Shown one piece after another: positions 2,263-20,783 of a DNA stretch of 64,000 bases; the first letter of the stretch is position 1, and each line of letters begins with the position of its first letter. Source of the DNA: Neomicrococcus lactis (GTDB lineage: Bacteria; Actinomycetota; Actinomycetes; Actinomycetales; Micrococcaceae); NCBI RefSeq assembly GCF_014200305.1, contig NZ_JACHBL010000001.1:1860001-1924000 (forward strand), in the 5' to 3' direction. The position numbers were made by a program, and so were the translations under genes. Below the pieces are notes generated by a model. It did no database searches, was not told the origin of the DNA, and saw only the letters and a program-made list of their open reading frames with translations.

Positions 2263-2417
2263 CGGGAGACCTCGCTGCACACAGTCAGTGGGGAGGTAAG
2301 TGAAGTTCTCATGGCTTTCCTTTCATCGCCCCGATGAAACGCGCGCAGCCAGATCCCGATCACAAGCCGAACCCCACAACAGCTCGGCTTACGGACAGAA
2401 GAAATTGCTCATGCATT

Positions 2418-2503
2418 CCATCGGTCCTGGCAGTAGCACCGGCCTCGATTGAGGTGGTTGCTGCGACGTCACGGAGCCAGGTCTCTCAGTCGCTCTTGAT
2501 GGT
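2418..2503 (-). promoter_or_regulatory. S-box (SAM) riboswitch upstream of 1021-2262
   Basis: On the minus strand the closing stem is formed by CCATC and GATGG. Between them lie AAGAGCGAC, TGAGAGACCTGGCTC, GACGTCGCAGCAACC and GGTGCTACTGCCAGGA, in the order of the SAM-I core (AGAG; GAG.GA..TGGC; GCAACC; GGTGCTA). About 155 bases separate it from the ATG. A likely promoter lies just upstream (TTGCAA, 18 bases, TAGATT). It is almost identical to the element at 10743-10827, including part of its promoter (CGATTAGAT). Confidence 0.88.
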
Positions 2504-2662
2504 AAGTGGTAACTAAAATCTAATCGAAGATTCTTTGAATTTGCAAGCCTGAGACAGCTTGACGTAAATATTTCGACACAGATGTAACTTTATGTCGAAC
2601 ATTTTCCCCTGCATGCGTATTTCATCGAATGACAGCGCATCTGCCGCTGGGCGCAGGACAAA

Positions 2663-10623: not shown

Positions 10624-10742
10624 TGCTGATCCTCTCGGTGTAGCCGAGGAATACGCACCGATTTCGGCCGCGCTGAAACACGACATAGCCCTACGCTCGG
10701 GAGAATCTCCCGAAGTTGGACCGAGGCGAAATGGTGAAGTCT

Positions 10743-10827
10743 CCATCGGTCCTGGCGGTAGCACCGGCCTCAAAGAGGTGGTTGCTGCGACGTCACTGAG
10801 CCAGGTCTCTCGGTCGCTCTTGATGGT
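10743..10827 (-). promoter_or_regulatory. S-box (SAM) riboswitch upstream of the Opp-type operon
   Basis: Minus-strand order: CCATCAAGAGCGACC, GAGAGACCTGGCTC, GACGTCGCAGCAACC, GGTGCTACCGCCAGGA, closing GATGG. It ends 119 bases before the GTG of the binding-protein gene. In that gap a compact inverted repeat, CGGGAGA-A-TCTCCCG (about 10699-10713), could serve in the expression platform. The promoter region shares CGATTAGAT with the 2418-2503 element. Confidence 0.88.
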
Positions 10828-10949
10828 GTGTTGTTGTGGATCTATCTAATCGCAGATTGTTCGATTGCGCAAAACAGAGACGCCCTACGTTGAAATATTT
10901 CGCAACTAACGCAAGTTCTTATCGCAGAACTGAATTGGCGTCGTCCTAA

Positions 10950-11639: not shown

Positions 11640-11670
11640 GGCGTCATTGTAGCCATGAACATCGGCCAGA

Positions 11671-11688
11671 AGTTTAGACGAATGGCTA
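11671..11688. promoter_or_regulatory. Candidate response-regulator operator, copy A
   Basis: AGTTTAGACGAATGGCTA contains the dyad TAGNC-N4-GNCTA, the geometry of NarL-type sites. It matches copy B at 13342-13359 at 17 of 18 positions. It lies between the divergent regulator gene and the small secreted peptide gene, about 40 bases upstream of the peptide's probable transcription start. Binding is inferred from position and symmetry only. Confidence 0.5.
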
Positions 11689-11724
11689 ACCGCAGGCTCG
11701 GGAACACTTGGGACAATGGAAGGT

Positions 11725-11904
11725 ATGAAAACCATTTCCCGCTTCACCGCCGTTGCCATCATCGCTCTTTCCGCCTTCGCAATGCCTGTTTCAGCAAGCG
11801 CCGCGACTGCGCCTACTTCCTCTGATGTAGTTACTACAACCGGATTCTCGTCCGATTTGGGCGCTTGGTTCTGCCGCACCTACGGCGCATGGTGCCCACG
11901 CTAA
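11725..11904 (+). CDS. Small secreted two-cysteine peptide
   Basis: A 59-residue precursor starting MKTISRF, with a signal peptide (hydrophobic AVAIIALSAFAM, cleavage expected after ASA near residue 26). The predicted mature part of about 33 residues ends DLGAWFCRTYGAWCPR, with Cys50 and Cys57 framing a short loop and the element GAW occurring twice. I do not recognise a family. It lies between the divergent response regulator and the histidine kinase, downstream of the dyad at 11671. A GACAAT hexamer ends 7 bases before the ATG, so the mRNA may be leaderless; an in-frame ATG also exists at 11716. A signal, lantibiotic-like or small antimicrobial peptide are all possible. Confidence 0.6.
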   Translation: MKTISRFTAVAIIALSAFAMPVSASAATAPTSSDVVTTTGFSSDLGAWFCRTYGAWCPR

Positions 11905-12058
11905 ACCTCAAGACTTCTCATTCACTTGCTGACCTCGGCTGCAATCCGGTGACGCACACACCTTCGCCAGAATGCCATTCGAGGCTGGAATTACGACTCT
12001 GCGTAAGTCCACGCATTTGATCCCGCGTCAGATGGCGGATTTACGTAGAGTCGTACCT

Positions 12059-13318
12059 GTGAACAGCGCCAGCAGCACTCCTCAGAAACCCGGGATCTTT
12101 TCGATATGGATTTCGGGCCTTTTCGGCGCGCGAAAAGCTGATAAGTTCACGCTCGCAATTGTGTCGATCATTGTTATGGCCTACGCGGCGACTGACGTGC
12201 TCTCTCTTTTCATCGAGCAAAACGCCGATGTTCGAAACCGAGCAGCAAACGTAGCCAACGTTGCTTTGATTTACTTGGCGGCGACGGGCTTCCTGTGGAT
12301 TCGATCGACCATCGCTGGCGTCATTTCTATCGCCGGCCTGGCCTTGTCACTACCAGTTCACGAATACGGCTACGCGATCATCGTGACCCCATTGATCTTT
12401 GCCGTCGTGGTGGCAACGGCAAACCGGGTCTTCATTGCGGCCTTCGTCGCAGCGTGGATTCTCTGGTCCGTTTCACTGTGGTTCATGTGGCCCAACGACC
12501 GACCGATTCTGTACTTCAGCATTCCGCTTTTGGGCGTTGGCGCACTGATCGGCACCCTTATTCGCCGTAGTTGGCGAGCTCAAGCGCGGCATATTGCCGA
12601 GATCGAAGAGATGCGCACTCTGCAGCTAGAAGCAAGCGCAGCCGAGCGTCTTTCAATCGCGAGAGACCTCCATGACATCGTGGCCCACGACATCACGATC
12701 ATCGCCATGCAAGCTCAAGCGGCATCCTTTGCGAAGAACCCCAAGCTCGCATCCGAGTCTCTGGAAGTCATTGGCCAGTCGGCCCGCAACACCCTCCAGG
12801 ACCTGCGCCTGCTGCTGAACGTTCTAAAGTCCTCCGAAGAAGCACACCTCTCAGACAAGAGCCTGTCCGCCGAAGAGGGTGGAGCTGCCGCCGGCGCATC
12901 GACGCTGACCCTTCGTCGAAGCATCGATCAAGCGTCACGGCAGTTGGAGTCCATCGGCTTCAGCGTCACGGAGAACATCAATGGCGACATTGACGAGCTC
13001 CCCCGTCGCATTCAGGTGGCGATGCACCGCATCCTCAAAGAAGCCACCACGAACATCCTGAAACACGCCACCCCGTCGAGCGACTGCTCCATTTGCGTGG
13101 ACACCGTTGAGGGCAACGTGATCCTCCGGATCCAGAACCAGAAGGCCCCAGCAACCAATGGCAACGGATCGTCGAACGCCAAGAACGCAAATGCTGGCCT
13201 AGGTTTGGGAAGCATCAGCGACCGCACCTCGAGCCTAGGCGGAAAGTTGGACGTCATCCAGACGGCGACAACCTGGCGCCTCGAGGTCACCGTTCCCATC
13301 CGTGGCGTGGAAATCTAA
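12059..13318 (+). CDS. NarL-type (HisKA_3) sensor histidine kinase
   Basis: About 419 residues: an N-terminal membrane block of five or six segments (from FTLAIVSIIVMAYAATDVL to RPILYFSIPLLGVGALIGTL), a short coiled linker, the phospho-acceptor box ARDLHDIVAHDITIIAMQA, and a GHKL ATPase domain with N-box ILKEATTNILKHA and G-box GLGLGSISDR. It would autophosphorylate and signal to the regulator at 10950. The start is uncertain: GTG 12059, ATG 12030 and ATG 11972 are in frame and none has a clear ribosome binding site; 12059 leaves the shortest tail before the first helix. The stimulus is unknown, but its location inside the sulfur region is suggestive. Confidence 0.88.
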   Translation: MNSASSTPQKPGIFSIWISGLFGARKADKFTLAIVSIIVMAYAATDVLSLFIEQNADVRNRAANVANVALIYLAATGFLWIRSTIAGVISIAGLALSLPVHEYGYAIIVTPLIFAVVVATANRVFIAAFVAAWILWSVSLWFMWPNDRPILYFSIPLLGVGALIGTLIRRSWRAQARHIAEIEEMRTLQLEASAAERLSIARDLHDIVAHDITIIAMQAQAASFAKNPKLASESLEVIGQSARNTLQDLRLLLNVLKSSEEAHLSDKSLSAEEGGAAAGASTLTLRRSIDQASRQLESIGFSVTENINGDIDELPRRIQVAMHRILKEATTNILKHATPSSDCSICVDTVEGNVILRIQNQKAPATNGNGSSNAKNANAGLGLGSISDRTSSLGGKLDVIQTATTWRLEVTVPIRGVEI

Positions 13319-13341: not shown

Positions 13342-13359
13342 AGTCTAGACGAATGGCTA
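13342..13359. promoter_or_regulatory. Candidate response-regulator operator, copy B
   Basis: AGTCTAGACGAATGGCTA, identical to copy A at 11671 except for one base, with the same TAGNC-N4-GNCTA symmetry. It lies 24 bases past the kinase stop codon, and a -10-like TTAATA follows about 30 bases later, before the hairpin at 13426. No protein gene of convincing length follows, so it may drive a short RNA. Confidence 0.45.
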
Positions 13360-13425
13360 TCGCCGAGCAGGAAAACGCCTCGTAACGTTAATAGTGCCCT
13401 TGGTGACGGGCAAGAAATGGGAACT

Positions 13426-13453
13426 GGATGGCCGGAGTGTGTGCCGGCCATCC
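13426..13453 (+). terminator. Strong hairpin after the kinase gene
   Basis: A perfect 10-bp inverted repeat (GGATGGCCGG and CCGGCCATCC, 8-base loop) followed by GCCATTT. It could terminate the kinase transcript or a short RNA starting near 13395. Confidence 0.6.
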
Positions 13454-13536
13454 GCCATTTAACGAGCAAATTTGAACGAGCAAGTCGGGGGCACATACCG
13501 CAAGCCGGGCACTCACTCGAGCACCGCCGTCGTCCT

Positions 13537-15001: not shown

Positions 15002-15055
15002 TTTTTGGTTCCTTCCCGACGAGAAGAACCCACGCAGGGCGCGGTTCGAGCTTCT

Positions 15056-15143
15056 CCATCGTTGCTGGCAGTAGCACCTTCCTCTTGATGAGGTGGTTGC
15101 TGCGGCGTCGTTGAGCCAGATCTCTCAGCCGCTCTGGATGGGT
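15056..15143 (-). promoter_or_regulatory. S-box (SAM) riboswitch upstream of 13598-15001
   Basis: Minus-strand core: CCATCCAGAGCGGCT, GAGAGATCTGGCTC, GACGCCGCAGCAACC, GGTGCTACTGCCAG, closing GATGG. It ends 54 bases before the ATG, so here the aptamer does not overlap the ribosome binding site and a separate expression platform is needed. Confidence 0.87.
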
Positions 15144-15162
15144 ACTTCTCCATTGCACACCC

Positions 15163-16476: not shown

Positions 16477-16663
16477 GGGATTGTCGCTTTCCGAGAGTGG
16501 GACACAAAGAACCTCAGAAGAGGGCGTCCTGATGAATAAATTGCTCGGTGGGTGATCCAAGGGTTCACTATCGATCGAATCAGACGCAACGATTGTGACA
16601 TGTTGTGAAATTTTCGAGTCATAATTTGGAGAAGGCTTCCAGCAAGGCTTTCAATTATTCGGT

Positions 16664-16762
16664 ACCCATCATGAGTGGCTGAGAGATCTGGCTCGACGAC
16701 GCCGCAGCAACCCCCAGCGAATCCTTTCGATTCGCGGACGGTGCTAACGCCAGAACCGATGG
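16664..16762 (+). promoter_or_regulatory. S-box (SAM) riboswitch overlapping the ssuB ribosome binding site
   Basis: CCATC (16666-16670) pairs with GATGG (16758-16762). Inside lie GAGTGGCT, GAGAGATCTGGCTC, GACGCCGCAGCAACC, an extended arm GCGAATCC/GGATTCGC-like, and GGTGCTAACGCCAGAA. The last two G residues of the closing stem begin the ribosome binding site GGAGAG, and ATG follows at 16769, so SAM-stabilised closing of the stem would hide the site directly. Confidence 0.88.
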
Positions 16763-16768
16763 AGAGAA

Positions 16769-20687: not shown

Positions 20688-20772
20688 TACCCATCAAGAG
20701 CGGCTGAGAGACCTGGCTCCGCGACGCCGCAGCAACCCTCGCAAGAGTTGGTGCTACCGCCAGGGCCGATGG
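20688..20772 (+). promoter_or_regulatory. S-box (SAM) riboswitch overlapping the ribosome binding site of the CoA synthetase
   Basis: CCATC (20691-20695) pairs with GATGG (20768-20772). Core: AAGAGCGGCT, GAGAGACCTGGCTC, GACGCCGCAGCAACC, GGTGCTACCGCCAGGG. The closing GATGG runs straight into GGAAGGA, the ribosome binding site for TTG at 20784. Confidence 0.89.
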
Positions 20773-20783
20773 AAGGATTAATT

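Follow-up and report, generated by a model that had tools for sequence, protein, structure and literature searches.

A conserved unit of a small two-cysteine peptide, a DesK-type kinase and a NarL-type regulator in Micrococcaceae, and its possible role in peptide signaling

Analysis of a 64,000-nucleotide stretch of the Neomicrococcus lactis genome (the window) showed a conserved three-gene unit encoding a small peptide precursor, a DesK-type histidine kinase and a NarL-type response regulator. The peptide gene is real and beyond chance, because related frames were found at the matching place in at least 31 of 197 genomes of the family, Micrococcaceae, and because the frame is under purifying selection in the two best-sampled genera (g23 and g24). 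With moderate confidence, the peptide is proposed to be a Sec-exported, disulfide-looped signal that would be sensed by its own DesK-type kinase in a positive feedback loop. A peptide gene together with a two-component system is a known kind of arrangement; this unit is a new form of it, set apart by its class of kinase and regulator, its type of precursor, the absence of any dedicated gene for processing and its occurrence in actinobacteria.

The peptide gene, its kinase and its regulator

The features of the unit are listed in Table 1. The original prediction had placed a 59-residue precursor between a divergent NarL-type regulator and its kinase; the precursor is present there, and the unit recurs in relatives. 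Conservation in close relatives, on which that prediction turned, was checked: the frame is kept beside homologous kinase/regulator pairs, with both cysteines invariant.

Table 1. Features of the unit and its flanks, in positions of the window
Feature	Position	Strand	Basis or remark
NarL/LuxR-type response regulator, 229 aa	10950..11639	-	translation; Pfam Response_reg 1.5e-29 and GerE 8.2e-16
Regulator -10-like box TACAAT	11646..11651	-	22 bp from palindrome; ATG at most 6 bp beyond
Palindrome TTAGACGAATGGCTAA, putative operator between divergent promoters	11674..11689	.	identical in sister genome G027
Peptide-gene -10-like box GACAAT	11712..11717	+	22 bp from palindrome
Peptide precursor, 59 aa: predicted signal peptide (ASA), then a spacer and a C-terminal W-x-C-x6-C	11725..11904	+	conserved family; dN/dS
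Inverted repeat, 19-nt arms, 89% complementary, between peptide and kinase	11992..12055	.	
DesK-type histidine kinase, six membrane helices	about 12059..13318	+	HisKA_3; helices modelled
Second palindrome CTAGACGAATGGCTAT	13345..13360	+	counterpart in G027
-10-like box TAACGT	13383..13388	+	22 bp from second palindrome; in G027 TAGTGT at equal spacing
82-nt block, putative small RNA, two hairpins	13387..13468	+	98% identical in G027

The precursor (MKTISRFTAVAIIALSAFAMPVSASAATAPTSSDVVTTTGFSSDLGAWFCRTYGAWCPR) starts with MKTISR, continues with a hydrophobic stretch, an A-x-A motif and a spacer, and then reads ...GAWFCRTYGAWCPR, its C-terminal end being WFCRTYGAWC. Signal-peptide traits (a basic start, a hydrophobic stretch and A-x-A in most of 28 members) were read from the sequence alone. 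Alignment of 28 precursors, with one duplicate (L111) excluded, showed that G40, C50, G54 and C57 were invariant in all 28 and W48 nearly so. The conserved cysteines and GAW motifs that had been anticipated were found in part: both cysteines are invariant, whereas of GAW...GAW just the second G is invariant, the first W is nearly so and the rest varies. Pooled dN/dS was 0.12 in g23 (10 sequences) and 0.13 in g24 (11 sequences), with synonymous sites near saturation in both; it was 0.40 for the one pair from the window's genus (g1) and 0.87 for four diverged sequences from g15, and the pairs behind these values are not independent.

Pfam, NCBIfam and PHROGs gave no model match at E 0.01 for any of the 28 members, and the best sequence match of the peptide among solved structures reached only E 0.23. 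An AlphaFold model of the peptide had a mean pLDDT of 60, with at most a possible helix at residues 39-53. No description of the peptide was found in the titles and abstract starts of the open-access literature searched.

The peptide gene lies directly before the kinase gene, with a gap that is mostly less than 60 nt depending on the starts chosen; in the window the kinase start is uncertain, GTG at 12059 being used here while the longest frame begins with ATG at 11972. The inverted repeat in this gap had no further copies within the window. The kinase matched HisKA_3 (1.4e-15) and, below threshold, HATPase_c (5.8e-5), and DesK was the best match to its core among solved structures. HisKA_3, the sub-threshold ATPase domain and a regulator with REC and GerE domains place the pair among NarL-type two-component systems. 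Residues 1 to about 170 of the kinase are hydrophobic and were modelled as six helices, which agrees with the claim in the original prediction that the sensor is a bundle of membrane helices. Mean identity was 30% in this sensor part versus 50% in the kinase part.

A regulator tree of 55 rows was inferred with identical rows dropped (L251, which was too short, L254, which has no regulator, and L047 are absent from it). The loci formed one group (47 rows, support 99/97) apart from eight outgroup regulators, and the Micrococcaceae part of the group (37 rows, Nesterenkonia included) was supported at 98/97; L248, labelled as an outgroup in this tree, is a near-copy of L247 with an identical peptide. 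The tree ties the peptide core to one kinase/regulator lineage. In a mirror-tree analysis of specific co-evolution between peptide and sensor, the peptide correlated highly with all three of sensor, kinase and regulator. Once the kinase part was taken into account, the partial r for the sensor was 0.15; the analysis was dropped as evidence because the correlations single out no sensor link beyond shared ancestry.

In about 18 kb of the window there were also five SAM riboswitches above the Rfam gathering score, at 2415-2505 (-), 10740-10829 (-), 15053-15144 (-), 16663-16765 (+) and 20688-20775 (+). Read by eye, the operons near them look like genes for ABC transport and for flavin-dependent oxidation, whose substrate may be organic sulfur.

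A shared palindrome, its candidate regulon and an 82-nt block

The window's genus was sampled as the window's genome (G000) and one sister genome (G027). In this genus the palindrome has the consensus TTAG[AC]C-N4-G[GT]CTAA and is separated by 22 bp from the -10-like box of the peptide gene and likewise from that of the regulator gene; the copy after the kinase is two mismatches from the consensus. The first palindrome is unchanged between the two species while its 60-bp flanks are only 70-72% alike. Searches with TTAGMCRAWYGKCTAA at up to two mismatches gave 10 distinct sites in G000, all of which were inspected, and 16 in G027, of which 10 were inspected. Sites seen in both species accompany the peptide gene, genes of the NlpC/P60 and DUF6318 types and two plasmid positions, and one more lies 3' of the kinase. 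The plasmid positions, on contig C2 of G000 (L140, L162) and contig C2 of G027 (L150, L164), precede a gene for a 76-aa RHH-like protein, a label read without a Pfam match, and a divergent MobC / Gp157-like pair. Sites near a trypsin-like protease (Trypsin_2, sub-threshold) and an M14 carboxypeptidase were listed in G000 only, and sites near a LuxR-type gene and an ABC ATPase (Pfam) in G027 only, where "only" means outside the listed sites of the other species. The remaining inspected sites (L165, L166; L147, L151) were inside coding frames or unassigned.

The DUF6318 palindrome was conserved at 15 of 16 positions versus 42% in its flanks, and the NlpC/P60 palindrome at 13 of 16. The plasmid palindromes say little, because the DNA around them is generally conserved (83-100%); the shared palindrome makes it possible that a chromosomal signal system is linked to plasmid genes. 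Of 20 site sides, eight had a box resembling a -10 element that started 22-23 bp from the palindrome, two of these boxes being read by eye, and 12 had none at this distance. TANNNT accounted for six of the eight: the sides facing the 82-nt block and the plasmid Gp157-like gene, each in G000 and G027, and those of the protease and the regulator. Towards the peptide gene there was no TANNNT box, and GACAAT was read at 22 bp in each of the two species; by eye, the regulator side of G027 also had TACAAT at that spacing. The 22-bp spacing puts the center of the site near -42, a position typical of an activator that overlaps the -35 region.

Raw counts were unconvincing in G000, with 17 two-mismatch strand matches against 26 for the reversed control; in G027 there were 25 against 12. 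The case for the palindrome therefore rests on conservation and spacing. A separate question is whether the palindrome serves another regulator, with the unit's own regulon lying elsewhere, which we regard as unlikely. The recognition helices of the regulators vary between genera, no matching site was recognised by eye in the other genera, and the two-mismatch counts are unenriched in the window's genome, all of which would fit another regulator; against it, the site is 22 bp from both divergent -10-like boxes and occurs again after the kinase, in both species.

DNA beyond the 82-nt block barely aligned between G000 and G027, and the 60 bp before the second palindrome were 55% alike. The block folds into its two hairpins with a z of -3.24, had no Rfam match, and was near-identical in 2 of 187 family genomes, with five more matching over at most 31 nt. 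In each species it has the second palindrome upstream, with a -10-like box 22 bp away, and we read it as a putative small RNA that would be driven by the unit's own regulator. A 19-codon GTG frame (13403-13462) lies inside the block and a small protein from it is conceivable; RNA is favored because all codon positions are near-completely conserved.

Distribution in the family and divergent versions beyond it

A search of the 197 family genomes with the single sequence gave 30 loci, 17 of which (the window's own included) had both regulator and kinase, and all 17 had a related frame between the two genes. A profile of the C-terminal 27 residues matched 32 of the 197 genomes at E 0.01. Thirty of these carry the unit (G178 among them), and two, G080 and G195, show no kinase or regulator; G014 (...SAKRLFCERWGLFCG) was missed by the profile and recovered through the search of the order. 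The unit was found in two genomes of g1, one of g4, six of g15, 11 of g23 and 11 of g24. Genus g23 takes in Paeniglutamicibacter sulfureus, P. psychrophenolicus and Arthrobacter sp. C2, g24 takes in Glutamicibacter protophormiae and G. soli, g4 takes in a record named Micrococcus terreus, and g15 is probably Micrococcus.

The neighborhoods of 21 loci (11-20 kb) from these five genera were compared for frames of at least 80 aa. Only the regulator and the kinase were present in all 21. A single further cluster reached all five genera, at 10 of the 21 loci, and its position marks it as a frame lying antisense to the regulator; other neighbors were common to fewer genera. Among the frames compared, no gene for a dedicated exporter or protease, for immunity or for modification recurred with the unit, and no shared neighbors appeared as targets common to all five genera.

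A GTDB scan with the kinase alignment confirmed at least 367 relatives, of which the best 80 were kept and 29 of those were examined. Nineteen of the 29 have a divergent regulator upstream. Nine of these 19 pairs have a peptide of the Micrococcaceae type, one of them from Citricoccus (...SYWCGFWGFFC); three, from Nesterenkonia, have 50-51 residues ending in C-x8-C and resemble a short hydrophobic helix and tail without A-x-A; and three have short peptides, from Microbacterium sp. GCS4 (...ELCKLLRICQG), an Actinomycetales MAG (...EICRLLKICK) and Microbacterium sp. VKM Ac-2923 (MSGIWSYMCQVMGICS). No peptide was seen in the other four (three Nesterenkonia and M. oxydans). In the family of G232, which we take to be Microbacteriaceae, 8 of 199 genomes had a strong kinase match (nine candidates per genome scored); six of these eight have a C-x5-C peptide, one has none and one lacks a regulator match. 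Examples are MFSGTKIIAPLQLSFFEWLCQMFGICS, found twice in near-copies, and ...GDWLCQMLGICA, and the short core in the Microbacterium relatives reads, for example, WLCQMFGIC. The C-x5-C peptides are 16-36 residues long by later starts and up to 55 by the longest frame. In ten regions of this kind, a frame ending in C-x5/6-C was present in eight, versus 1-8% of mononucleotide shuffles per region. The short Microbacterium-type versions (16-30 residues) have no recognizable signal peptide, a point against the export proposed below. At one locus of G232 (L251) there was no two-cysteine frame between regulator and kinase; a cysteine-less frame that begins MSFWEQFDASS was seen there by eye, perhaps a replaced or decayed signal. 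Frames ending in Cys-x-Cys at L175 and L183 were not counted because they overlap regulator or kinase frames, nor was one at L254, a locus without a regulator match.

A tandem version, with regulator, peptide and kinase on one strand, was found in a single genome of a third family (G542, L047, family f3, about 1489-1680), and its likeness is loose. Its peptide has a GTG start after AGGAGG, a signal-like N-terminus and the end ...GDLACQVLGDFFEKC / ...LACQVLGDFFEKC. In 396 genomes of the order, the full-length peptide profile gave a match at E 0.01 in 75, the strong ones being those in G000 and G023, and 4 of 30 loci tested from this search had regulator and kinase (L031, L032, L037, L047), the other 26 not. 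Among 394 genomes of the class, the sole strong match to the core profile was the window's own; 27 core-profile loci of 26 other genomes had no kinase match, and one of these 27 had a distant regulator match. A WLCxxxGIC pattern in the DNA of 386 genomes had two matches, of which that in G261 is real (L252, a locus already in the set) and that at L255 was judged unrelated from its DNA. A search for homologs on plasmids gave no match. With a peptide of this length, searching the order, the class and the DNA pattern has little power, and these negatives are therefore weak evidence of absence elsewhere.

On the simplest reading the unit is old, with the peptide lost or replaced in some Nesterenkonia and Microbacterium. 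More tentatively, the versions may together be an undescribed, old actinobacterial family of peptide signals read by DesK-type kinases, with a core of about W-x-C-x-x-[YFLM]-G-x-(x)-C that would be carried by Sec-type precursors in Micrococcaceae, by leaderless short peptides in Microbacterium relatives and by the tandem version in the third family. Under this broader proposal, the unit of the window's genus would act as a switch with positive feedback, and the genes under its control would be those for an NlpC/P60 hydrolase and secreted peptidases, the plasmid genes and an 80-nt RNA dedicated to the system.

Proposed mechanism, alternatives and known systems

We infer the following mechanism. 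The precursor would be exported by the Sec route and cut after A-x-A, giving a peptide of about 30 residues with a C-terminal C-x6-C loop closed by a disulfide. The membrane-helix bundle of the adjoining DesK-type kinase would sense this peptide, so that cells would signal to one another, and the kinase would phosphorylate the NarL-type regulator. In the window's genus, the regulator would bind TTAG[AC]C-N4-G[GT]CTAA about 42 bp upstream of transcription starts and would raise the expression of its own gene and, as positive feedback, that of the peptide, along with a small regulon for which the NlpC/P60 hydrolase, the secreted peptidases, the DUF6318 gene, the plasmid genes and the 80-nt RNA are candidates. 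What the computation shows is the conserved three-gene unit, selection on the peptide frame, and a conserved palindrome at a regular spacing from -10-like boxes; the further steps are predictions. Weighing against the mechanism are the short versions with no recognizable signal peptide, the four divergent pairs in which no peptide was seen, the mirror-tree result, the higher dN/dS in g1 and g15, the raw palindrome count in G000, the 12 site sides with no box at 22-23 bp, and the other genera, where no such site was recognised.

The main alternative is drawn by analogy from MgrB and is rather improbable: the two-cysteine protein would stay in or at the membrane of its producer and tune the kinase without signaling between cells, possibly by sensing redox state or the envelope. 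Its overall design (small, membrane-directed, with two cysteines and one feedback partner) is that of MgrB, the Nesterenkonia versions look like a short hydrophobic helix with a tail, and the 16-30-residue Microbacterium-type versions without an export signal fit it at least as well as they fit a secreted peptide. Against it, in most Micrococcaceae versions the core is preceded by a spacer and by what reads as a typical signal peptide ending in A-x-A.

The original prediction had recognized the layout of quorum-sensing or bacteriocin-sensing loci. Its peptide-signaling part is supported by the conserved frame beside the kinase and regulator, while the bacteriocin-sensing variant is unsupported because no export, immunity or modification gene recurs among frames of at least 80 aa. 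A secreted bacteriocin whose level is set by the adjacent two-component system is very unlikely: the peptide is small, appears secreted and has two cysteines, and YG beside a cysteine recalls the class IIa motif, but no accessory gene recurs among those frames, there is no C39 peptidase match, 0 of 28 members match Pfam or NCBIfam, and the core is tied to one kinase/regulator lineage. Hardly plausible is a leader peptide whose translation would control the kinase gene by attenuation, since the position just before the kinase and the hairpins after the peptide gene in the window and, by eye, in g23 are outweighed by a predicted signal peptide and Cys/Gly core under amino-acid selection, by the lack of a single-codon run, and by a gap and hairpin that vary between genera.

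Gene-encoded peptide signaling through two-component systems is best known from Firmicutes. The signaling reading of the unit shares with the AgrBDCA system and its AIP a short gene-encoded peptide, a ring closed through cysteine (here predicted), a membrane-helix kinase and feedback on its own genes. It differs in having no AgrB, a Sec-type precursor, two cysteines rather than a thiolactone, three genes, and a HisKA_3/DesK-type kinase with a GerE/NarL-type regulator instead of AgrC and AgrA with LytTR. AgrB (PF04647) had no match in the window's genome, a weak control in that 1 of 14 control genomes matched, below the cut-off; C39 peptidase had no match there either, compared with matches in 8 of 14 control genomes. 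No known dedicated processing route is therefore apparent in the window's genome. ComC/ComD and the double-Gly bacteriocin-inducing peptides likewise have a peptide gene beside kinase and regulator genes and a six-helix sensor, but the precursor described here has a predicted signal peptide and A-x-A in place of a double-Gly leader, there is no C39 exporter, and the kinase and regulator are of another class. DesK/DesR- and LiaS-type systems resemble the unit in the kinase core, for which DesK is nearest among solved structures, the membrane-only sensor and the NarL-type regulator, but lack the extra conserved peptide gene between the two genes, which in this unit are usually divergent. MgrB with PhoQ/PhoP, compared by description only, is alike in its small two-cysteine membrane-directed protein, single kinase and feedback, and unlike in that the signal peptide of the unit usually looks cleavable, its loop is C-terminal and its kinase belongs to a different class. 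Class IIa bacteriocins (YGNGVxC) are short secreted peptides with YG near a cysteine, as the peptide of the unit would be; in the unit YGNGV-C is absent, the core is C-terminal, there is no double-Gly leader, and no immunity or export gene recurs among frames of at least 80 aa.

A review of quorum sensing in actinobacteria reported it in 25 of 342 genera; the parts of its text available here list domain-level evidence alone for Arthrobacter and do not contain the string "Micrococc" (PMC4748050). With only three genes, a candidate operator and a candidate regulon, the unit is a minimal case open to testing, and some of the genera that have it can be cultured, Glutamicibacter and Paeniglutamicibacter among them. 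Nature also provides a comparison here, in that versions with one core differ in their leader and so, perhaps, in their route of export. These data suggest that genes of 16-60 codons beside kinases are worth a systematic search.
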